Shown piece by piece: positions 41,309-51,255 of a stretch of 64,000 bases of DNA. The translations under genes were made by a program, and so were the position numbers. Every line of letters starts with the position of its first letter. The first letter of the stretch is position 1. A model generated the notes under the pieces. It worked only from the letters and a program-made list of their open reading frames with translations. It did not search any database and was not told the DNA's origin. This stretch comes from Taibaiella koreensis (GTDB lineage: Bacteria > Bacteroidota > Bacteroidia > Chitinophagales > Chitinophagaceae), in assembly GCF_003545715.1 (NCBI RefSeq), contig NZ_QVNU01000001.1, positions 434,001 through 498,000 of the forward strand, given 5' to 3'.

Positions 41309-41740
41309 ATGATGTCTAAGAAATGCAAGTATGCCCTGAAAGCCCTCACCAGTCTGGCGCAGCATTACAACAAAGGATTGCTGCAGGCAGGTGTAATGGC
41401 GGAGGCCGATGGTATACCTAAAAAATTCCTGGACCAGATATTGCTGGACCTGAAACGCGCCAAGATAGTAAACAGCCGCCAGGGCATCGGAGGCGGGTAC
41501 TACCTGGTGAAGGCGCCATCCGAAATATCTGTCGCCGATGTATACCGGTTGTTCGACGGACCTATAGCCCTTACTCCCTGCGCCTCGCTCTACTTCTACG
41601 AAAAATGCGACGACTGTAAAGATGAAGCTACCTGTTACCTACGCAAAGAATTTATTTCCATCCGGGAAAAGACGAGAAGCATTATGAGCGAAACTACCTT
41701 GCAATCCTTTGTTGATAATAAATCCCGGTTACTGCCTTGA
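41309..41740 (+). CDS. Rrf2-family transcriptional regulator
   Basis: Winged-helix repressor of the Rrf2/IscR/CymR family (143 aa). The N-terminal CKYALKALTSLAQHY helix, the recognition region IPKKFLDQILLDLKRAKIVNSRQGIGGGYYL and the C-terminal cysteines CASLYFYEKC-DDC-TC, which could hold an Fe-S cluster, are visible. It lies just upstream of the sulfate-assimilation operon in the same direction, so it is the best candidate regulator for that operon (compare CymR and cysteine metabolism in Firmicutes); that link is inference. Confidence 0.9.
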   Translation: MMSKKCKYALKALTSLAQHYNKGLLQAGVMAEADGIPKKFLDQILLDLKRAKIVNSRQGIGGGYYLVKAPSEISVADVYRLFDGPIALTPCASLYFYEKCDDCKDEATCYLRKEFISIREKTRSIMSETTLQSFVDNKSRLLP

Positions 41741-41847
41741 TCAGCGGTTTTAGTACGCTTTCCCATAGCTTTCGGTATGTCTTGCCGTCCTGTGCAAGAC
41801 TGGAATTAAGGTTGGAGAATTTTTTTTTGAAAAAAAACACTATAAAG

Positions 41848-41878
41848 TTGATGGAATTAATATAGTTTACTATTTTTG
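41848..41878 (+). promoter_or_regulatory. Promoter and putative operator of the cys operon
   Basis: TTG (41848-41850), 20-nt spacer, TATTTTTG (41871-41878). A perfect palindrome, ATAGT-TT-ACTAT (41862-41873), overlaps the -7 element, and a wider pair ACTATA (from 41839)/TATAGT flanks it. This is a plausible Rrf2 operator. Confidence 0.65.
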
Positions 41879-41880
41879 TC

Positions 41881-42000
41881 CCGGTCCTTTATTCTTGAGG
41901 TATAGCAAACCCGTTTTGCAATAACTCAGAAGCAGGAGCATAACCGGGCTATAACCGTTTACAATAAAAGGTTTCTGTAAATAAGCCCGGAATTTATGGC
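41881..42000 (+). ncRNA. Structured leader RNA of the cys operon, two exclusive folds
   Basis: Fold 1: CCGGT (41881-41885) pairs with ACCGG (41943-41947) and encloses a long hairpin (41895-41899 with 41925-41929; 41901-41903 with 41921-41923; GCAAA 41905-41909 with TTTGC 41915-41919). Fold 2: CCGGGCT (41944-41950) pairs with AGCCCGG (41994-42000), with an inner TTTACA/TGTAAA stem. Both need 41944-41947, so they exclude each other. I recognise no known riboswitch. If transcription starts after 41883, fold 1 would be shortened. Confidence 0.4.
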
Positions 42001-42097
42001 TGTTTCTTTTTCAAGCTGCTTTCGTAGTTTAAGGGAGTGTCAATTTTTTTTTGCTAAAAAATACTACTAATACGATAGAATTTATAAACTTATACAA

Positions 42098-42205
42098 ATG
42101 AGCTTTTACAACGTTTCTGCCTTTTCCGCTTATGTGCATCCTGTAGCTCCGGTAACATGCTGCCGTATCGTTTGTAGCCACCTGGCTATATGCTGTTGTT
42201 GTTAA
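42098..42205 (+). CDS. Polycysteine leader peptide of the cys operon
   Basis: A 35-codon ORF too short for usual gene calls. It starts with ATG at 42098, runs MSFYNVSAFSAYVHP and ends VTCCRIVCSHLAICCCC before TAA at 42203-42205. Seven of the last 15 codons are Cys, the last four (42191-42202) consecutive. A small hairpin (42173-42179 with 42184-42190) lies directly before those four codons. It sits 68 nt upstream of the APS reductase gene, in the leader of a cysteine-biosynthesis operon. By analogy with amino-acid leader peptides and the polycysteine leader ORFs described in mycobacteria, ribosome stalling at Cys codons would report Cys-tRNA supply. Translation itself is not shown. Confidence 0.72.
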   Translation: MSFYNVSAFSAYVHPVAPVTCCRIVCSHLAICCCC

Positions 42206-42273
42206 GTTTTTCTTTTTCCTTCCTGCGTTAAAGCCTGCCCTGCGGGCAATCCCTTATTAAATTTAAAGATCAG

Positions 42274-42987
42274 ATGAGTGCTGTATTGCAGCAGGAATGG
42301 CATGCGCTGCGTGACCTCCTGCCCTCTTTATCGATATCCGGTATGTTCGACGTGCTGTGTGAACGCTTTACCGGAGCAATTACTTTTTCTACCAGCTTCA
42401 GCAATGAGGACCAGGTGATCATCGATCATGTGGGCCGCATCAGCGACAGGATTAAAGTATTTACGCTGGACACCGGCCGGCTGTTTCCCGAAACCTACCA
42501 GACCTGGGCCGAAACCGTAGCCTGGTATAACATTACGATAGAAGCCTACTTTCCTGAAGCATCCGAATTGGAACCTTACCTGCACGAACAGGGACCGAAT
42601 AGTTTTTACCGGTCGCCCGAAGAAAGAAAGACCTGTTGTCACATACGCAAAGTAAGCCCGCTGAAACGGGCATTGCGGGGCAACAAAGTATGGATCACGG
42701 GTCTGAGGGCTGAGCACTCGCCTGAACGGCAGAACCTTGAACAGCTTGAGTGGGACGAAGCGCATCAGCTCATCAAGTATCATCCGCTGTTGCATTGGAC
42801 TACGGCAAGTGTGAATAGCTATATCCGCGAGCGACGCCTGCCCTATAATGTACTGCACGACCGGGGCTTTGCCAGCATCGGTTGCGCACCCTGTACGCGT
42901 GCCCTGCGACCAGGCGAACCCTTAAGGGCCGGTCGCTGGTGGTGGGAAGAAGCCGGCAAAAAGGAATGTGGCCTGCATGCGACATAA
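42274..42987 (+). CDS. cysH: Adenylylsulfate (APS) reductase, CysH family
   Basis: Reduces activated sulfate to sulfite (237 aa). The family segments are FSTSFSNEDQVI, LDTGRLFPETY and the Cys pairs TCCHIRK and GCAPCTR. The CC plus CxxC pattern binds a 4Fe-4S cluster and marks the APS-using type rather than the PAPS-using enzyme, in line with the absence of an APS kinase (cysC) gene. The reductase's usual C-terminal catalytic ECG is present as KKECGLHAT. First gene of the operon after the leader peptide; cysD starts 29 nt downstream. Confidence 0.95.
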   Translation: MSAVLQQEWHALRDLLPSLSISGMFDVLCERFTGAITFSTSFSNEDQVIIDHVGRISDRIKVFTLDTGRLFPETYQTWAETVAWYNITIEAYFPEASELEPYLHEQGPNSFYRSPEERKTCCHIRKVSPLKRALRGNKVWITGLRAEHSPERQNLEQLEWDEAHQLIKYHPLLHWTTASVNSYIRERRLPYNVLHDRGFASIGCAPCTRALRPGEPLRAGRWWWEEAGKKECGLHAT

Positions 42988-43016
42988 GATTTCAGCAACA
43001 ATTAAACTAAAGCTTT

Positions 43017-43916
43017 ATGCCAAGAGATTACCTGGACACGCTTGAATCGGAAGCGATATACATATTGAGAGAAACCGCTGCACAGTTTGAACGTCCGGCA
43101 TTATTGTTCAGTGGCGGTAAAGATTCGATTACCCTGGTGCATCTGGCGCTGAAAGCCTTTCGCCCGGGACGTCTGCCCTTTCCCCTGGTCCATATCGACA
43201 CCGGTCATAATTTTCCGGAGGCCCTGGCTTTCCGTGACCGGCTTGCTGTGGCATTGGGTGAGCAGCTGATCGTACGTTACGTTGAAGACACCATACAGTC
43301 GAAGAACCTGCAGGATGGCACTGGAAAATTTGCTAGCCGCAATGCCCTGCAGACGCATACCTTGCTGGATACCGTAAGTGAGTTTGCGTTTGATGCCTGC
43401 ATCGGCGGAGCCCGGCGTGATGAAGAAAAAGCAAGAGCCAAGGAGCGTATATTTTCTGTACGCGATGAATTCGGGCAATGGAATCCGAAGTTGCAGCGGC
43501 CCGAACTATGGCAGCTCTACAACGGCAGGATCCATAAAGGTGAAAATGTACGGGTGTTCCCCATCAGCAATTGGACCGAGCTTGATGTATGGCGCTACCT
43601 CGAGCGGGAACAGATCGCGTTGCCATCCATTTACTTCGCTCATGAACGGGATGTGATCGAATACGAAAGCCAGCTGATCGCCGTATCGCCCTTTATCCGT
43701 CTGGATCCGTCGGACCAGATCACCAGGCGCCGTGTGCGATACAGGACGGTAGGTGATATGACCTGTACCGCAGCCGTAGCCTCTGAGGCCGCTACTATTG
43801 CCGACATCATCGGAGAGATTGCCTGTACCCGTATCAGCGAACGTGGCGAGACCCGTATTGATGACAGGGTATCGGAGGCGGCTATGGAAGACCGTAAAAA
43901 GAATGGCTATTTCTAA
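43017..43916 (+). CDS. cysD: Sulfate adenylyltransferase subunit 2
   Basis: Small, PP-loop subunit of ATP sulfurylase (299 aa), which makes APS from ATP and sulfate. Seen are LFSGGKDSITLVHLA, VHIDTGHNFPEALAFRD, the conserved ACIGGARRDEEKARAKERIFS block (residues about 123-143; key residues GGARRDEE) and FPISNWTELDVWRYL. Full length and followed 23 nt later by its partner cysN. Confidence 0.97.
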   Translation: MPRDYLDTLESEAIYILRETAAQFERPALLFSGGKDSITLVHLALKAFRPGRLPFPLVHIDTGHNFPEALAFRDRLAVALGEQLIVRYVEDTIQSKNLQDGTGKFASRNALQTHTLLDTVSEFAFDACIGGARRDEEKARAKERIFSVRDEFGQWNPKLQRPELWQLYNGRIHKGENVRVFPISNWTELDVWRYLEREQIALPSIYFAHERDVIEYESQLIAVSPFIRLDPSDQITRRRVRYRTVGDMTCTAAVASEAATIADIIGEIACTRISERGETRIDDRVSEAAMEDRKKNGYF

Positions 43917-43939
43917 CCTCATTTCTCAAAAAAATATTC

Positions 43940-45193
43940 ATGGATCTACTACGTTTCATTACCGCCGGTAGCGTCGACGACGGCAAAAGCACGCTGATAG
44001 GGCGTTTGCTTTACGATAGCAAAAGCATATGGGAAGATCAGCTTGAAGCTATAGAACGGCAGAGCAAGCGCAGAGACAATGGTGTTCCCGACCTGGCTTT
44101 GCTGACCGATGGCCTAAGAGCCGAAAGGGAGCAGGGCATTACCATTGATGTTGCTTACCGTTATTTTAATACGGTACGCCGGAAATTTATTATTGCAGAC
44201 GCACCCGGGCATATCCAATATACCCGCAACATGGTTACGGGGGCCTCCAACGCCGATCTGATCGTGATCCTGATCGATGCCCGTCATGGTGTGGCGGAAC
44301 AAACCCGCCGCCATTCCATCATCGCGTCCTTGCTGAAATTGCCTCATGTGATCGTTGCCGTCAATAAGATGGACCTGGTTGGCTATGCGCAGGATGTATT
44401 TGACGGTATCGTAACAGCATATAGCGGCCTGGCCCGCGAATTGCAGCTGCCGCCGGTTACCTATCTGCCCATCAGTGCGCTTCAGGGCGATAATATAGTC
44501 AAACGCTCGGCGCATATGTCCTGGTACGAGGGACCGTCCCTGCTGGAGTTGCTGGAAGAGGTATCACTTGCCGGCATAAGCGAAGCCCTGCCGGCGCGCT
44601 TTCCAGTTCAGTATGTAATACGGCCGCAAACGGAGACGCTGCATGATTACAGAGGTTATGCCGGCCAGATCAGCAGTGGTACTTTCTCCGTGGGGGATCA
44701 CGTGACGATACTGCCTTCCGGCGCCACCACGCGTATTGCGCGTATCGAGTCGGGAGCGCAACAGCTGCAGACTGCCTGCGCACCGCAAAGTGTGGTGCTC
44801 CATGTCGAAGGAGAATTTGATATCAGCAGGGGCGACCTCATTGTTCCATCCGGTGCTCTGCCCACTCTGCAGCAGGAGCTATCGTCGCTCATCTGTTGGA
44901 TGGATGTTAAGCCGCTGTTAAAAGGCAACCGGTACCTGCTGCAGTACAATACCTTTCGTACACCTGTGGTGATTAAGGCGCTGGAATACCGGCTCGATGT
45001 CAATAGCCTGGACCGTGAAACAACACCGGACCGTATAGAATTGAATGAAGTGGTTCGGGCAAGGATCAAAACCGCTATGCCGCTTGCTTTTGATCGCTAT
45101 ACCGGTAACCATGCCCATGGCGCAGCAATACTGATCGATGAAAGCAGCAATGCTACGGTGGGCGCATTGATGCTGGAAACAGAAGCGGTTTAA
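43940..45193 (+). CDS. cysN: Sulfate adenylyltransferase subunit 1 (GTPase)
   Basis: Regulatory GTPase subunit of ATP sulfurylase (417 aa), which drives APS formation by GTP hydrolysis. The G-domain shows GSVDDGKST (10-18), REQGITIDVAYRYF, DAPGHIQYTRNM and NKMDLVG, followed by EF-Tu-like beta-barrels. It has no fused C-terminal APS kinase (cysC) domain, consistent with the APS-type reductase upstream. cysE-like gene starts 11 nt later. Confidence 0.97.
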   Translation: MDLLRFITAGSVDDGKSTLIGRLLYDSKSIWEDQLEAIERQSKRRDNGVPDLALLTDGLRAEREQGITIDVAYRYFNTVRRKFIIADAPGHIQYTRNMVTGASNADLIVILIDARHGVAEQTRRHSIIASLLKLPHVIVAVNKMDLVGYAQDVFDGIVTAYSGLARELQLPPVTYLPISALQGDNIVKRSAHMSWYEGPSLLELLEEVSLAGISEALPARFPVQYVIRPQTETLHDYRGYAGQISSGTFSVGDHVTILPSGATTRIARIESGAQQLQTACAPQSVVLHVEGEFDISRGDLIVPSGALPTLQQELSSLICWMDVKPLLKGNRYLLQYNTFRTPVVIKALEYRLDVNSLDRETTPDRIELNEVVRARIKTAMPLAFDRYTGNHAHGAAILIDESSNATVGALMLETEAV

Positions 45194-45204
45194 AGCAATA
45201 CCTT

Positions 45205-46035
45205 ATGGATAGAACATTTATAGAGCTGTTGTATGAGCAAGGGCAGGCGACCCTCGGCCTGATCGTGGATAAAAGGTCGGCAGAGGCATTTGTTGAAAAC
45301 CTGTTCCGATTGCTGTTCCGGAGAGAAAGCCGGAAGTATGCTTCCAAAGCGGAATTGGTACACCAGTACGAAGGATTGCGTGGCAGCTTTTCTTCCATAC
45401 TCTTCGATATTATTCCCGGGAAGGAGGCAGTGGAGCGTATAGAGACGGCATTCTTTAATGCTTTGCCAGGTTTATATGCCCTGCTGCTCGACGATGCCCG
45501 GGCCATACTGCAAAACGATCCGGCTGCTGCCTCTCTCGAAGAAGTGCTGACGGCTTACCCCGGTTTTTTTGCGATCGGTATTTATCGTTTTGCGCATCAA
45601 TTACATGTATACGGAGTACCGCTGCTGCCCCGCTTTCTTGCCGAGTATGCTCATAGCAAGACCGGCATCGATATTCATCCGGGAGCGCGTATCGGCACTT
45701 CCTTTTTCATCGATCACGGCACCGGCATTGTTATCGGTGAAACCACGATCATCGGCGACGAGGTTAAAATATACCAGGGTGTGACCATCGGTGCATTGCA
45801 TGTGAGCAAAGAGCAGGCCCGTGTCAAAAGGCATCCCACTATCGGCGACCGCGTGATCATTTATTCCGGGGCAACCATTCTCGGCGGAGAAACGGTGGTA
45901 GGACATGATAGTGTGATTGGTGGGAATGTATGGCTAACCCAAAGTGTGCCGCCGCAATCTGTGGTCTATCATAAAAGCGAGGTAATCGTAAGGGGCAAGC
46001 AGCCATTGCCGGAGCCGGTCAATTTCGTCATCTGA
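45205..46035 (+). CDS. cysE: Serine O-acetyltransferase
   Basis: Acetylates serine to O-acetylserine, the carbon acceptor for sulfide (276 aa). An alpha-helical N-terminal region (1-160) precedes a left-handed hexapeptide-repeat helix: IDIHPGARIGTSFFIDHG, GIVIGETTIIGDEVKIYQGVTIG (key residues HG, GET) and HPTIGDRVIIYSGATILGG. It is the EpsC-like longer type. Feedback inhibition by cysteine is usual for the family. It lies directly before the cysteine synthase gene. Confidence 0.95.
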   Translation: MDRTFIELLYEQGQATLGLIVDKRSAEAFVENLFRLLFRRESRKYASKAELVHQYEGLRGSFSSILFDIIPGKEAVERIETAFFNALPGLYALLLDDARAILQNDPAAASLEEVLTAYPGFFAIGIYRFAHQLHVYGVPLLPRFLAEYAHSKTGIDIHPGARIGTSFFIDHGTGIVIGETTIIGDEVKIYQGVTIGALHVSKEQARVKRHPTIGDRVIIYSGATILGGETVVGHDSVIGGNVWLTQSVPPQSVVYHKSEVIVRGKQPLPEPVNFVI

Positions 46036-46061
46036 TTTTTTTAGGAACCAAAAAATAAACA

Positions 46062-47027
46062 ATGAAAATAGAGAACATCTTAGGCGCAATCGGCAATACG
46101 CCGCATGTACGCCTCAATAGGCTTTTCGACACGGGACATGAAGTCTGGATCAAGACCGAGCGTAGCAACCCGGGAGGCAGTATCAAAGACCGTATTGCCC
46201 TGGCTATGATCGAAGACGCAGAGCAAAAGGGCAGGCTGACCAAAGATACCCTGATCATAGAGCCCACCTCGGGCAATACTGGTGTGGGGCTGGCGCTGGT
46301 CGCTGCTATCAAAGGCTATCGGCTGGTGCTGGTGATGCCAGAGTCAATGAGCATAGAACGGCGTAAGCTAATGGCTGCTTATGGCGCCAGGTTTGTGCTG
46401 ACACCAAGAGAAAAAGGGACCGCAGGCGCAGTGGCTAAAGCCAATGAGCTGGCCGCGGCTATCCCTGGCGCCTGGGTGCCGCAGCAGTTTGACAATACCG
46501 CCAACCTGGACATCCATCGGCGTACAACTGCCGGGGAGATACTGAACGACTTTCCTGAAGGGATCGATTACCTGATCACCGGAGTAGGCACAGGTGGGCA
46601 CATCACAGCAGTAGCTGAAGTCTTAAAAGAGCATTTCCCAGCGCTTAAGGTATTTGCCGTAGAACCGGAGCAGTCGCCGGTATTAAGCGGTGGGGCGCCC
46701 GGTCCACATCCGCTGCAAGGTATCGGAGCGGGTTTCAGGCCATCCATATTGAATACCGAAATACTGGACGGCATTATCCGGGTGGGCAAAGAAGAAGCCT
46801 TTGACTATACCCGGAGGCTGGCCAGGGAGGAAGGCATACTGGCCGGCATTTCGACAGGTGCTTCCCTTGCTGCTGTGGCTTCACGGCTGGCCGGTATTCC
46901 CCCGGGAGCGCGCATCCTCACTTTCAATTATGATACGGGAGAGCGATACTGGTCGGTGCCCGATCTCTTCTCCGAAGAGGGCGCAGAGGCCGATTTCGCT
47001 GCATTTACAGATAAGATTGCAGGCTAA
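46062..47027 (+). CDS. cysK: Cysteine synthase (O-acetylserine sulfhydrylase)
   Basis: PLP enzyme joining O-acetylserine and sulfide to give cysteine (321 aa). Seen are [13 protein letters not shown], the PLP lysine in [25 protein letters not shown], the phosphate-binding [15 protein letters not shown] and the substrate-loop [10 protein letters not shown]. The symbol cysK is chosen over cysM on general resemblance; the two cannot be separated firmly here. Confidence 0.93.
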
Positions 47028-47061
47028 GCTGCTTCTTTAATCACGATAAAAAAGATAAACC

Positions 47062-47892
47062 GTGGAAACAGGAAAAGTGATACTGGCCGGTGCAGGTCCC
47101 GGCGATCCCGAGCTGCTAACGTTGAAAGCGGCCCGCTACCTGCAGCAGGCAGATGTGGTGCTGGCCGATCGCCTGGTGAGCGAAGGTATTTTGTACCAAT
47201 GGGTACAACCGCGTGCGGAGATCATTTTTGTAGGTAAAGAAGGCGGTAATGACCAATCAACAAGCCAGGAAGATATCAATGCGTTGCTGGTGCAATATGC
47301 CCTGGAAGGCAAACTGGTCGTTCGTTTGAAAGGGGGAGATGTCGCCTTCTATGCTAATGTGCTGGACGAGCTGCTGGCCCTGAACCGGTATAGCATTTCC
47401 TACGAGATCGTGCCTGGTATCAGCGCGGCATCGGGCGCATCGGCTTATAGCGGCATCCCGCTTACAGCCAGGAATTATGCGCAAAGCGTACGCTTTCTTA
47501 CCCTGTACAATGCGGATCAATATACCGATGTGTTCTGGCAGGAGCTGGCGCACACCGCCGATACACTTGTGCTGTATATGAGTGGCGGTCAGTTGGGCAC
47601 AATTGCCCGGAAGCTTTCGGCCCGGGGTATTGCAGCCGGTAAAATGCTCGCGCTGATCAGCCAGGCGACCACACCGCAACAAAGTATACAGCTATGGGAT
47701 ATCGATAAACTGGCAGAGCAGGAGCATTCTTCTTTCATTTCCCCTTCACTGATCATCATTGGCAAGGTAGTGGCCCTTCACGAACAATTCGGCTGGTTCA
47801 AGCCTGAAGCAGCTGAGCAGTCTGAGGTCTATTTCAGGGAGATACGCAACGCACAAGCGGCATCATTGTCACCTGTCTTCGTACCGAAATAA
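47062..47892 (+). CDS. cobA: Uroporphyrinogen-III C-methyltransferase
   Basis: SUMT: methylates uroporphyrinogen III twice to precorrin-2, the first step to siroheme (276 aa). The start is a GTG. Motifs are LAGAGPGDPELLTLKAARYL, VVLADRLVS, RLKGGDVAFYAN, PGISAASGASAYSGIPLTAR and LYMSGGQLG. Its product would be processed by the siroheme-synthase domain of the fusion protein at the end of this operon, to feed CysI. Confidence 0.95.
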   Translation: METGKVILAGAGPGDPELLTLKAARYLQQADVVLADRLVSEGILYQWVQPRAEIIFVGKEGGNDQSTSQEDINALLVQYALEGKLVVRLKGGDVAFYANVLDELLALNRYSISYEIVPGISAASGASAYSGIPLTARNYAQSVRFLTLYNADQYTDVFWQELAHTADTLVLYMSGGQLGTIARKLSARGIAAGKMLALISQATTPQQSIQLWDIDKLAEQEHSSFISPSLIIIGKVVALHEQFGWFKPEAAEQSEVYFREIRNAQAASLSPVFVPK

Positions 47893-47902
47893 AACAGGCA
47901 TT

Positions 47903-49585
47903 ATGATCACAACAGAACGCAATACTGTATTGCAACAACTGGTATCCGGTGCTTCACACGATGAGCTGGTCTGGATCAGCGGATACCTTTCCGGCTTGCT
48001 GGGCCAGCAACCAAACCGTGCTGTGCTGCCGCATAGTGCTTCGCTGAATATAACACTGGCTTATGGAACAGAGACAGGCAACAGCAAAGCCTTAGCGCAT
48101 AAGCTGGCAGCGCTGGGCAAGCGACAGAAGCATAAAATGAAAGTAGTGGCGCTCGACCAATACAAACCCACGCAACTGGCCGGGGAAGCATTATTCATTG
48201 CGGTGGTCAGCACCCAGGGCGATGGCGATCCGCCGATAGCAGCGCAACGTTTTTTTGACTATCTGATTCAGGAGCAACCCGACCTGGCAGGGCTGCAATT
48301 TGCAGTGTTAGCCCTGGGCGATAGCAGCTACCCTCGCTTTTGCCAGGCCGGTATTGACCTGGACCAACTGTTGAGGCAAAATAAAGCGACCCGTGTGCAA
48401 AAGCCACTGTTATGCGATACTGATTATGAAAGCGCTGCTATTGCCTGGTTTGATCAGCTGTTGACGGGCTTGGGTGATCCGGATGGGCAAAGCGTACCAC
48501 CGATGCTGGCTAATGCACCCGCCGGACCCGCGAAAAAGGTGTACGCAGGAGGGATCACAAGGCATATCAATCTCAACGACCGGGGATCGGATAAGGCTAC
48601 CTATCATATTGAGATCGCTGCACCGGGGATTGCTTACCAGCCTGGGGATGCCCTGGCCCTGGTACCCGAAAACCCGGCAACATTGGTCGAGGATCTGTTG
48701 GCGCTGACTGGGACCTATGCCACTCAGGAAGTAAGCTACCGGGGGCAGCAGCGGCCCGTCTATACGCTCCTGCAAAAGGAGCTCAATATCAGCTGGCTGC
48801 CGGAGCGGGTGGTGGCAGCCTATGCAGCCATTGTACAGCAGGAAATACCGGAAACAAAGATCGGGTTGAAGGATCTGCTGAAGATCTATCCGCTTAAGGC
48901 GCCGGCACAATTTGAAGAAGTGCTGCAAGTGCTGGAACCTATGGCCCCGCGCCAATATTCTATTGCCTCCTCTCCTGCGGCCCATCCAGGCGAGATACAC
49001 CTTACGGTAGCATTGGACACCTTTAGTGTAGCGGGCGAAGTACGGCATGGCTTGTGCTCACATTACCTGTCACTACAGGAGGATAGCGTCTTGTCTTTTC
49101 GCATTCACACGAACAACAGGTTCCGGTTGCCGCCGGAGAATAAGGACATGATCATGATAGGTCCGGGTACCGGTATCGCGCCCTTCAGGGCTTTCCTTAA
49201 TGAAAGAGACGCTGACGGTGCTATCGGAAGGAACTGGCTCTTCTTCGGCGACCGGAACTTTACTACGGACTTCCTGTACCAGACAGAAATACAGAGCTGG
49301 TTGGAAACAGGCCTGCTGAGCCGCTTCAACGCCGCCTTTTCCCGCGACCAGGAAGAAAAGATCTATGTGCAGCATCGTATGGAAGAACATGGCGCTGAAC
49401 TATACAAATGGCTCGGGGAGGGCGCTTACCTCTATATCTGCGGCGCACGGGTTCCTATGGCAGCCGATGTAGAGGCGACCTTGCTCCGCATCATCGCCCG
49501 CGAAAGCGGGGAGAGCACCGAAGCCGCACAGCAGTTTCTGGAACAGCTGGAAACAGAAGGCCGTTATTTAAAAGATGTTTATTAA
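47903..49585 (+). CDS. cysJ: NADPH-sulfite reductase flavoprotein
   Basis: Passes electrons from NADPH through FAD and FMN to the sulfite reductase hemoprotein (560 aa). A flavodoxin domain (about 48-190: LAYGTETGNSKALA, STQGDGDPP, LGDSSYPRFCQAG) precedes an FAD domain (RQYSIASSP, GLCSHYL) and an NADPH domain (IGPGTGIAPFRAFL, LFFGDRNF). It ends GRYLKDVY, matching the aromatic C-terminus of CysJ. Next gene is cysI, 11 nt downstream. Confidence 0.96.
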   Translation: MITTERNTVLQQLVSGASHDELVWISGYLSGLLGQQPNRAVLPHSASLNITLAYGTETGNSKALAHKLAALGKRQKHKMKVVALDQYKPTQLAGEALFIAVVSTQGDGDPPIAAQRFFDYLIQEQPDLAGLQFAVLALGDSSYPRFCQAGIDLDQLLRQNKATRVQKPLLCDTDYESAAIAWFDQLLTGLGDPDGQSVPPMLANAPAGPAKKVYAGGITRHINLNDRGSDKATYHIEIAAPGIAYQPGDALALVPENPATLVEDLLALTGTYATQEVSYRGQQRPVYTLLQKELNISWLPERVVAAYAAIVQQEIPETKIGLKDLLKIYPLKAPAQFEEVLQVLEPMAPRQYSIASSPAAHPGEIHLTVALDTFSVAGEVRHGLCSHYLSLQEDSVLSFRIHTNNRFRLPPENKDMIMIGPGTGIAPFRAFLNERDADGAIGRNWLFFGDRNFTTDFLYQTEIQSWLETGLLSRFNAAFSRDQEEKIYVQHRMEEHGAELYKWLGEGAYLYICGARVPMAADVEATLLRIIARESGESTEAAQQFLEQLETEGRYLKDVY

Positions 49586-49596
49586 GCCAATAGCAT

Positions 49597-51255
49597 ATGA
49601 GCACAAAATTATCTTCGACAGAAAGGATAAAAACAGATAGTAAGGGTCTCCGGGGGACACTGAAAGAAAGTCTGCTGGATGAGCATACCGGCGCTCTGCG
49701 GGAAGACGACCAGGTACTGATCAAGTTCCACGGCATGTACCAGCAGGACAATCGTGACCGGAGAGAGGAGCGGGCGGCCAAAAAGCTCGACCGCTTGTAT
49801 TCCTATATGATCCGGCTAAGGCTGCCTGGAGGTTTTCTTACACCGGAGCAATGGATTGCGGTGCACGAGATTGCCGGGCAGCATACCACCGGTGTGATCA
49901 AGATCACCACCCGGCAGACCATTCAGTTGCATGGTATCCTGAAAGCGAAGATTAAGCCGACGATAAAGGCTTTCAATGAAGCTATACTGGATTCCATTGC
50001 AGCCTGCGGCGACGTCAACAGGAATGTGGTCGCGGCCGCTTATCCTTCGCAATCGGCGGTACATCGCACCGTGCATCAATTGGCCGATAAGATCAGCGCT
50101 TACCTGAAGCCAAAGACAAGCGCTTATTATGAAATATGGCTTGATGAAGAAAAGATCATAGAGAAGGAAGAAACAGATGAGCTGTACGAAGACCGTTACC
50201 TGCCCCGAAAGTTCAAGGTAGCCATAGCGGTGCCGCCCAATAACGATGTCGATGTGTATACCAATGATGTCGGGCTGATCGCTATTGTTGAAGCGGGAGA
50301 AATAAAAGGCTATAATATCGCCATCGGCGGCGGCATGGGCAGTACACATGGCAATAGCGCCACCTACCCGCGGCTGGCCACCCCTATCGGATTTGTCGAT
50401 AACGAGGAAAAAGCCCTGAAAGCTGTATACGAAATCGCTACTATTCAGCGCGACTACGGCAACCGGAGCGATCGGAAGCTGTCCCGCCTGAAATATACCG
50501 TTGATCAGTATGGTCTCGATTTTTTTTGTGATGAGCTGGAACGCCGTATGGGCTTTGCCCTGGAAACCACAAAAGAAGTGATCTTTACCACAAGGGCAGA
50601 TGAATATGGCTGGCAGCAAACAGAAAACGGTACCTGGACCTACACCTTGTTTACCGAGAACGGAAGGCTGCTGGATGAAGGTGATGTGCAGCTAAAAACA
50701 GCCATCTACGAAGTGGCGCAGACCGGTAAGGCCAATATTCGCTTTACCTGCCACCAGAACCTGAGCCTTTGCGATATTGCACTTCCCGATAAGCCGGTCA
50801 TAGAGGCTTTGCTCAAACAATACGGTGCGATCGCGCATACGGAGCAGGCTTCGGTTGTACGAAAGCAAGCTATGGCCTGTGTCGCTTTCAATACCTGCCC
50901 CCTGGCACTTGCAGAGGCACAGCGCTATATGCCGGCGCTGATCTCATCGATAGAGCAATTGTTGCATCAGTATGCGCTGGATGATGAGGAGATCATCATG
51001 CGTATGACGGGCTGTCCCAACGGCTGTGCACGTCCTTATGCTGCCGAGATCGGCTTCGTAGGAACAGCTTATGGGCGTTACAATGTTTACCTGGGCGCCG
51101 ATAGAGCCGGTACACGGCTAAATAAGCTGTACCGGGAAAGCCAGGATGAAGCGGCGATATTGGCCCTGCTCGATAATCTTTTTAAACAATACAGCGAACA
51201 ACGCCTTCCGGGTGAGGCTTTCGGCGACTTCAGCCTGAGAGCGGCCTGGGTATAA
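49597..51255 (+). CDS. cysI: Sulfite reductase hemoprotein
   Basis: Reduces sulfite to sulfide by six electrons using siroheme and a 4Fe-4S cluster (552 aa). The N-terminal half has KFHGMYQQDNRD, IKITTRQTIQLHG and the NRNVVAAAYP turn. The cluster ligands are CVAFNTC (C-x5-C) and GCPNGCARP (C-x3-C) in the C-terminal half. Electrons come from CysJ. A 163-bp gap with a small GTCCC/GGGAC hairpin but no terminator separates it from the receptor gene. Confidence 0.97.
   Translation: MSTKLSSTERIKTDSKGLRGTLKESLLDEHTGALREDDQVLIKFHGMYQQDNRDRREERAAKKLDRLYSYMIRLRLPGGFLTPEQWIAVHEIAGQHTTGVIKITTRQTIQLHGILKAKIKPTIKAFNEAILDSIAACGDVNRNVVAAAYPSQSAVHRTVHQLADKISAYLKPKTSAYYEIWLDEEKIIEKEETDELYEDRYLPRKFKVAIAVPPNNDVDVYTNDVGLIAIVEAGEIKGYNIAIGGGMGSTHGNSATYPRLATPIGFVDNEEKALKAVYEIATIQRDYGNRSDRKLSRLKYTVDQYGLDFFCDELERRMGFALETTKEVIFTTRADEYGWQQTENGTWTYTLFTENGRLLDEGDVQLKTAIYEVAQTGKANIRFTCHQNLSLCDIALPDKPVIEALLKQYGAIAHTEQASVVRKQAMACVAFNTCPLALAEAQRYMPALISSIEQLLHQYALDDEEIIMRMTGCPNGCARPYAAEIGFVGTAYGRYNVYLGADRAGTRLNKLYRESQDEAAILALLDNLFKQYSEQRLPGEAFGDFSLRAAWV

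Follow-up and report, generated by a model that had tools for sequence, protein, structure and literature searches.

How a stretch of DNA before a cysteine biosynthesis operon might report the supply of cysteine itself is the question raised by a short reading frame in Taibaiella koreensis. The window, by which the whole 64,000-nt stretch analysed here is meant (contig NZ_QVNU01000001.1, positions 434,001 to 498,000), contains on its plus strand a leader ORF of 35 codons (42098..42205, ATG start, TAA stop), the last four of which all encode cysteine, at a distance of 68 nt from cysH. To our knowledge, cysteine-responsive leader peptides have so far been described in Actinobacteria. The analysis below argues that the polycysteine leader is probably a cis-acting cysteine sensor read by the ribosome, to which a probability of about 0.86 is assigned; the step to a sensor is taken because the anatomy of the leader is joined by the established biology of leader peptides. 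That the leader in the window belongs to a conserved, putatively cysteine-sensing class located in a second phylum is well supported by sequence comparison.

The leader ORF and its operon

The terminal cysteine codons TGC TGT TGT TGT occupy 42191..42202 and form the proposed sensor, giving a C-terminus of CCCC and seven cysteines among the last 15 residues. The ORF, its coordinates and its cysteine count were found exactly as given in the preliminary description, which had also held it unlikely to arise by chance. The window holds 646 plus-strand and 641 minus-strand ORFs of 8-80 aa; no other of these 1,287 ends in CCCC or carries at least six cysteines in its last 15 residues, and no ORF of either kind was generated in 5,000 dinucleotide shuffles of 41885-42273. 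In the genome of T. koreensis itself, 10 sites, the leader included, have four TGY codons with a stop directly behind; six of the others use TGA and have no in-frame start codon in any case, while the remaining three, with TAA, all fall within long ORFs in another frame or on the other strand. A chance origin, for which only the small size of the ORF speaks, is of negligible probability, since the comparative counts given below already refute it, as do the controls, the shuffles and the frame test.

Downstream, a plus-strand operon (42274-51255) follows in the order cysH-cysD-cysN-cysE-cysK-uroporphyrinogen methyltransferase-cysJ-cysI. The first gene, cysH (42274..42987), is of the thioredoxin-dependent APS reductase type (TIGR02055, 2.5e-71, above cut-off), and is followed by cysD (43017..43916), cysN (43940..45193), a cysE-like serine O-acetyltransferase gene (45205..46035, below the TIGR01172 cut-off) and cysK (46062..47027; TIGR01139, 6.4e-117). 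The uroporphyrinogen-III C-methyltransferase of siroheme synthesis (47062..47892, TIGR01469), a cysJ-like sulfite reductase flavoprotein (47903..49585, below the TIGR01931 cut-off) and a cysI-type sulfite reductase hemoprotein (49597..51255; NF010029, 9.4e-222) complete the operon, all on the plus strand.

The operon is likely transcribed from a Bacteroidota-type promoter whose -7 box, TATTTTTG (41871..41878, plus strand), we take to be such from the consensus TAnnTTTG, with a transcript start predicted at about 41884. The leader transcript, put earlier at 395 nt, thus comes to about 390 nt when reckoned from this box. Two copies of a 50-nt direct repeat, 76% identical, lie on the plus strand in this region: the first (41818..41867) is the promoter-proximal block and leads into the -7 box, and the second (42042..42091), which has no such box, ends 6 nt before the leader ATG. 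An imperfect hairpin with nine T behind it (41997-42052, the T at 42044-42052) lies some 45 nt upstream of the leader. It resembles a terminator and is placed like the riboswitch terminators of relatives; its T run also falls within the repeated block. Searches of the 5' leader against Rfam gave no match at gathering score, SAM-I (RF00162) included, and two sub-threshold matches (E 1 and 8.4) were taken as chance. Conservation of 41860-42100 across the family was likewise rejected: hits in 87 of 195 genomes (E ≤0.1) were judged to be low-complexity chance, and the matches listed, other than the window itself, were pieces of at most 50 bases. A plasmid search with 41860-42200 returned nothing.

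Conservation before cysH in relatives

If a cysteine run is kept among relatives while the remainder of the peptide drifts, selection on the cysteines is indicated, and such a comparison across Chitinophagaceae had been proposed at the outset. Three samples were read. For the family, 189 of 294 genomes had a cysH match, and 110 loci, mostly the best-scoring, were read, 109 of them distinct; a titled-assembly sample provided 49 cysH loci; and in the class, matches in 135 of 296 genomes yielded 24 distinct loci that were new and had sufficient sequence upstream, to which 40 more were added. A strict rule required at least three cysteines in the last eight codons of a short ORF ending at most 250 nt from the cysH match, and a relaxed rule three cysteines within 12 of the last 20 codons.

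Under the strict rule a leader was found in 62 of the 109 family loci (reverse strand 4 of 109, shuffles 1.7%); the relaxed rule raised this to 68, against 12 and 7.6%. The titled loci gave 7 of 49 (reverse strand 0, shuffles 0.6%) and, relaxed, 11 (reverse strand 4, shuffles 3.9%), and the first class loci 4 of 24 (reverse strand 0, shuffles 0.6%) and, relaxed, 7 (reverse strand 0, shuffles 4.4%). The further 40 class loci added L240 and L261, whose leaders are clear, and L242, a doubtful hit close to the upstream gene. Altogether, the leader is wanting in 58 of the 64 class loci outside the family sample. Control genes behaved differently from cysH: the strict rule found nothing in 30 cysK-type and 20 purC upstream regions (relaxed, 2 and 1), and genes of the cysK type were accordingly dropped as a further target of polycysteine leaders. 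A genome-wide search for (TGY)4TAA was also abandoned as a leader finder, as all 28 readable sites of 30 taken from 147 family genomes overlapped a long ORF.

Inspection by hand reduced 89 automatic leader calls to 77 (66 family, 7 titled, 4 class). The 12 removed calls were not Cys-tailed or were out of context (L001, L004, L032, L033, L044, L047, L128, L161, L177, L187, L193 and L205), and L182, with upstream DNA too short, was excluded from the rule-based count. At least three cysteines in the last eight codons are present in 73 of the 77. Analyses of the spacer used 75 leaders, excluding L112, which has a misplaced cysH start, and L204. After inspection, a cysteine-rich short ORF stands directly before cysH in 66 of the 109 distinct family loci, and by genus in 32 of the 51 sampled; among the 19 genera in which it is wanting before cysH, one (g83) carries it before metY. 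Absence of a conserved cysteine-rich ORF in relatives, named earlier as the outcome that would have spoken against a regulatory role, was thus not what these genomes revealed. Where cysH is first in its operon, the leader is present in 65 of 94 loci, one duplicate counted.

The cysteines as codons

Cysteine makes up 26% of the residues after the start in the 75 leaders, with TGT used 284 times and TGC 122 times, and the last codon is Cys in 55 of them. Leader lengths run from 15 to 33 aa (10-90% range), and the non-Cys part of the peptides is variable. In 125 aligned pairs from 60 leaders, cysteine columns showed 142 synonymous against 75 amino-acid changes and other columns 167 against 544, pairs which are non-independent and whose alignment favours Cys on Cys; the expected pattern of a kept cysteine run with synonymous drift was therefore borne out in the direction proposed. 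In 30 ungapped pairs of equal length the same tendency was seen, with 22 synonymous and 30 amino-acid changes at Cys against 44 and 140 elsewhere (p=0.014). An early codon comparison anchored at the stop, in which leaders of unequal length were misaligned, had not set Cys codons apart from the others (p=0.42).

The variability of the peptides also bears on whether the product itself, a functional cysteine-rich peptide binding metals or redox partners or modified into a natural product, is what selection maintains. Small cysteine-rich peptides can indeed bind metals, as is generally known, but the non-Cys residues vary, lengths range as above, the ORF of the window has no family match in Pfam or NCBIfam, and its position is fixed before the first gene of the operon; this explanation is considered highly improbable.

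Evidence that the repeat is read as codons came from its frame. Of 37 cases in which one TGY cluster follows another, 33 preserve the reading frame (p=2.5e-12). Each of the 65 runs of at least three TGY located at most 260 nt before a family cysH has an in-frame upstream ATG, the reverse strand holding two such runs. Simple run counts are uninformative, because one repeat holds all three registers: GYT, YTG and TGY runs before cysH are equally common (57, 57 and 58 of 109 loci), and the argument therefore rests on the frame test. On this comparative evidence, the leader cysteines appear to be read as codons and are under reading-frame constraint. Another explanation takes the UGU/UGC repeat for an RNA motif bound by a protein or sRNA, with its reading as cysteine incidental. 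The tract is certainly repetitive in U and G, and in the metY leaders described below a hairpin clearly matters and is read in more than one frame; set against this are the frame kept over interruptions, the in-frame ATG before every run of at least three, and the tolerance of synonymous changes at the Cys codons, so that such a motif is regarded as very improbable. Since the cysteine run is kept in many relatives with the remainder drifting, the leader very probably senses a shortage of cysteine.

Promoter box, operator-like palindrome and Rrf2 neighbour

In 66 of the 75 loci (3.7 expected) the leader ATG is preceded by a TAnnTTTG box at a distance of at most 70 nt, with a median of 26 nt; in the window the box is located about 220 nt upstream. 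Moreover, a palindrome of the form GTCTAC-N7-GTAGAC is present at most 60 nt before the leader in 47 of 75 loci (shuffles 0.9%). The corresponding element of the window is the operator-like 19-mer TACTACTAATACGATAGAA (42062-42080, plus strand), which has 4 mismatches of 12 to the palindrome. A regulator of the Rrf2 type may bind this palindrome. Upstream in the window, a gene for an Rrf2-family transcriptional regulator of 143 aa is located on the plus strand (41309..41740; Pfam Rrf2 3.9e-34, NCBIfam rrf2_super above cut-off), whose product scored below the cut-offs of the NCBIfam CymR and IscR models. As a fixed neighbour it was rejected, a homologue being present in only 4 of the 103 loci with at least 1,400 nt upstream, two of these four being among 35 leader loci. 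In seven class loci (L237, L241, L244, L246, L252, L262 and L263) an Rrf2-like gene stands before cysH and there is no cysteine leader; by eye, an apparent small conserved gene lies between the two.

Leaders before metY

The placement of the leader is illustrated by genus g83, where the gene order is metY-metX-hom (homoserine dehydrogenase)-cysH. With cysH behind metY, a leader ending CCCICCMP is found 90-105 nt before metY in all three genomes read. The leader keeps to the head of the operon, also where the first gene is metY, as g83 has it before metY and not before cysH. Nine further stretches read beside g83 held no intergenic leader under the strict rule. Among the 30 best-scoring metY loci of 117 family genomes, 13 had a leader under the strict rule and 16 under the relaxed rule; the metY leader set used below numbers 18, two g83 genomes included.

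In 14 of these 18 leaders, the Cys codons lead directly into a hairpin, in most cases TATGCC-GYAA-GGCATA, the core letters of which are near-invariant (alignment of the 14; the hairpin-less L352, L357, L359 and L379 were omitted). The hairpin is kept while its reading frame varies, since it is read as CMP-stop in nine leaders, CMPQGI in three and CRKA-stop in two. In some cases the stop codon falls in the loop, and in others the loop is read as another codon, the hairpin of L338 at about 2097-2116 being an example of the element. A plain search with the 14-base hairpin core found matches in 62 of 294 family genomes; of 29 matches read (L393 omitted), 15 were before metY, among them every one of the 13 that had a Cys leader; seven of these 13 loci were already counted. 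A hairpin spanning the leader stop was found in 10 of the 18 metY leaders, compared with 2.0 in shuffled (max 6) and 6.2 in swapped sequences (max 10). The leader of the window has no hairpin of the metY type.

SAM-I riboswitches at leader loci

At gathering score, the only Rfam matches at the metY leader loci were SAM riboswitches. A SAM-I element lies at 9 of the 18 metY leader loci, compared with 8 of 14 leader-less loci (strands from coordinates), a few hundred nt before the leader; it shares the strand of the leader at L338, L339, L350, L355, L360, L364, L365, L367 and L378. Of the 77 cysH leader loci, 5 carry SAM-I upstream on the leader's own strand (L070, L073, L075, L136 and L261, the strand of the last taken from coordinates) and 7 carry it on the opposite strand, in a scan from which L204 was left out. 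Four of the five same-strand elements end 112-145 nt before the leader ATG, and in those four loci no TAnnTTTG box lies between; because of this gap without a box, SAM-I and the cysH leader are probably carried on one RNA. A SAM-I element and a polycysteine leader on the same strand could possibly act as a two-input gate. In a further group of loci (L132, L139, L147, L156, L164 and L168), which have a SAM riboswitch upstream on the opposite strand, the start region of the leader can pair just before cysH.

From the proposed sensor to its output

The proposed process begins with translation of the leader ORF by a ribosome. When charged tRNA-Cys is scarce, the ribosome would stall on the terminal Cys codons, allowing expression of the cysHDNEK-cobA-cysJI operon. 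With ample cysteine, it would complete the ORF and leave at the stop, and expression would be attenuated. Translation of the leader, stalling and the response to cysteine are thus parts of the model, predicted from the cysteine codons and their position. How a stalled ribosome would act on the genes behind it is best approached through the three outputs compared below.

The classical output of the trp/his type would combine the same sensor with alternative hairpins and an intrinsic terminator. The control codons of such a system are present in the leader peptide, and hairpins occur in suitable places. A looser terminator scan of 41700-42500 gave two terminator-like hairpins, at 42150-42165 and 42173-42190, both within the leader ORF (shuffle expectation 0.8, sd 1.0). 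The second, a candidate small hairpin TGTAGCC-ACCT-GGCTATA (42173..42190, plus strand), lies directly 5' of the Cys run, so that the Cys codons provide its T-rich tail. A GC hairpin, GCCTGCCCTGCGGGC (42233-42247, plus strand), is located in the spacer, and the fixed hairpin that ends the metY leaders points in the same direction. Nevertheless, a GC hairpin with a U-rich tail was found in none of the 75 cysH leaders between 60 nt before the leader stop and 60 nt into cysH (shuffles 0.5%), which renders this output improbable. In the window itself, the 68-nt spacer to cysH (42206..42273, plus strand) is pyrimidine-rich past the stop and has no U-tailed terminator. The preliminary description had seen no T-tailed terminator 3' of the ORF and had cautioned that control may avoid a classical one; both points agree well with these results, the two hairpins of the looser scan lying inside the ORF.

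The second output, of the kind known from mycobacteria, is translational: the Cys tract or nearby RNA would mask the initiation region of cysH, and stalling would open it. In Bacteroidota, ribosomes rarely use Shine-Dalgarno sites. At L079, the start could be opened for 12.4 kcal/mol with the tract masked, compared with 17.8 without the mask, although such pairings are found in single lineages. Pairing the tract with its own start gives a slightly stronger duplex than shuffled targets do (-12.0 v -11.4, mean z -0.27), and the tract with its own spacer folds slightly better than with shuffled spacers (mean z -0.5, p=0.007). Over the 75 leaders, however, the duplex is no stronger than with leader-less cysH starts (-12.0 v -12.6), masking the stall site does not open the start further than masking another site (0.74 v 0.98 kcal/mol, p=0.34), and shuffling the start region makes no change (p=0.72). 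As a general explanation, base pairing between the Cys tract and the start of cysH was rejected after these three tests gave no consistent signal, and the masking output as a whole is considered rather unlikely. A hairpin around the stop as a general feature of cysH leaders was also rejected (16 of 75 against 9.7 shuffled, max 17, and 13.1 swapped); the same test at a higher score gave 11 against 4.3 shuffled (max 11) and 7.2 swapped.

The output tentatively favoured here is premature transcription termination of the Rho type, without a hairpin-U terminator, relieved by the stalled ribosome. Rho would load on C-rich, G-poor RNA directly 3' of the leader stop, and a stalled ribosome would cover that RNA. 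Loading sites of Rho are C-rich and G-poor, and over the first 40 nt past the leader stop C reaches 26% and G 11%. For comparison, the leader-less cysH genes of the family (41 genes, -65 to -25, partly coding DNA) have C 18% and G 19%, and C minus G over the spacer differs between cysH genes with and without a leader at p=1.3e-12. Between -60 and -1, leader-bearing cysH genes have a C/G ratio of 1.77, compared with 1.55 in cysK-type and 1.14 in purC genes. The composition only hints at Rho, and because the like-for-like C/G excess is small, this output is given somewhat less than an even chance. The weak folding of tract with spacer, the pairings specific to single lineages and the fixed metY hairpin leave room for an output based on RNA structure instead of Rho.

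Possible joint control of sulfur genes

Taken together, the cysH and metY leaders may form a sulfur 'ribulon' of the family, in which stalling on Cys codons would jointly run the two operons, SAM-I and the leader would act as a gate in series, and the output would use neither an intrinsic terminator nor start masking, passing at metY through the hairpin; this picture is offered tentatively, at less than even odds. If it is true, sulfate assimilation (cysH operon) and the synthesis of homocysteine and methionine (metY operon) would be under joint control. The series gate, if true, would combine two inputs, low SAM and low cysteine, and the metY output, if true, would depend on a fixed hairpin whose loop can hold the stop codon of the leader. 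One layer of control would thus extend to metY as a further gene and, at some loci, to SAM as a further signal. The leaders place probable cysteine-responsive elements in a second phylum, in which attenuation has been little studied, and offer short, testable elements in many genomes. They also pose the question of how a stalled ribosome controls an operon without a terminator behind the leader.

Comparison with known systems

Polycysteine leaders in Bacteroidota were absent from the literature matches listed, most subscription papers lying outside their scope, in line with the earlier statement that none is described there. In the passage available of a flavobacterial transcriptome paper, clues to leader-peptide attenuation before amino-acid operons are given and cysteine leaders do not appear; the passage available of the B. 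thetaiotaomicron map concerns sORFs in 5' UTRs, again with no cysteine leaders in it. In the part available of Seliverstov et al. 2005 (PMC1262725), leaders with Cys runs are predicted before cys operons of mycobacteria and others, no obvious terminators are seen behind them, and Rho is suggested.

With the trp, his and leu attenuators, the cysH leaders share a leader peptide rich in the regulated amino acid (26% Cys in the 75 leaders), but they differ in the want of an intrinsic terminator behind the leader (0 of 75). Rho attenuation of the tnaC type in E. coli is alike in that a ribosome at the end of the leader could decide the access of Rho downstream; the cysH leader would sense by codon starvation in place of an amino-acid-binding peptide, and no peptide motif besides Cys was seen in the cysH leaders. 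The SAM-I riboswitch (RF00162) lies upstream on the same strand at some leader loci, yet it is a second, separate sensor, and the window carries none.

The closest resemblance is to the polycysteine leaders of Actinobacteria. In those bacteria more than one sulfur operon is wired alike, as a 'ribulon', and the Bacteroidota leaders agree with them in this respect, as well as in the short ORF, the Cys run near the stop, the position before cysteine genes and the lack of an obvious terminator behind. The Bacteroidota leaders belong to a different phylum, and no homology is claimed. Translation attenuation in M. smegmatis was reportedly described by Canestrari et al. in 2020, according to a citing passage, and the polycysteine leader ORF of mycobacteria is said to be leaderless, the transcript starting at the start codon. 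In the Bacteroidota loci, the ORF begins some 26 nt after the promoter box, or about 220 nt in the window, which suggests that it is not leaderless, and in contrast with mycobacteria masking of the first gene's start by the Cys tract gave no general signal. The sensor of the Bacteroidota leader, not found in print within the literature searched, is therefore like the actinobacterial kind in a different setting, in which some loci add a SAM-I riboswitch and the metY version ends in a fixed hairpin.
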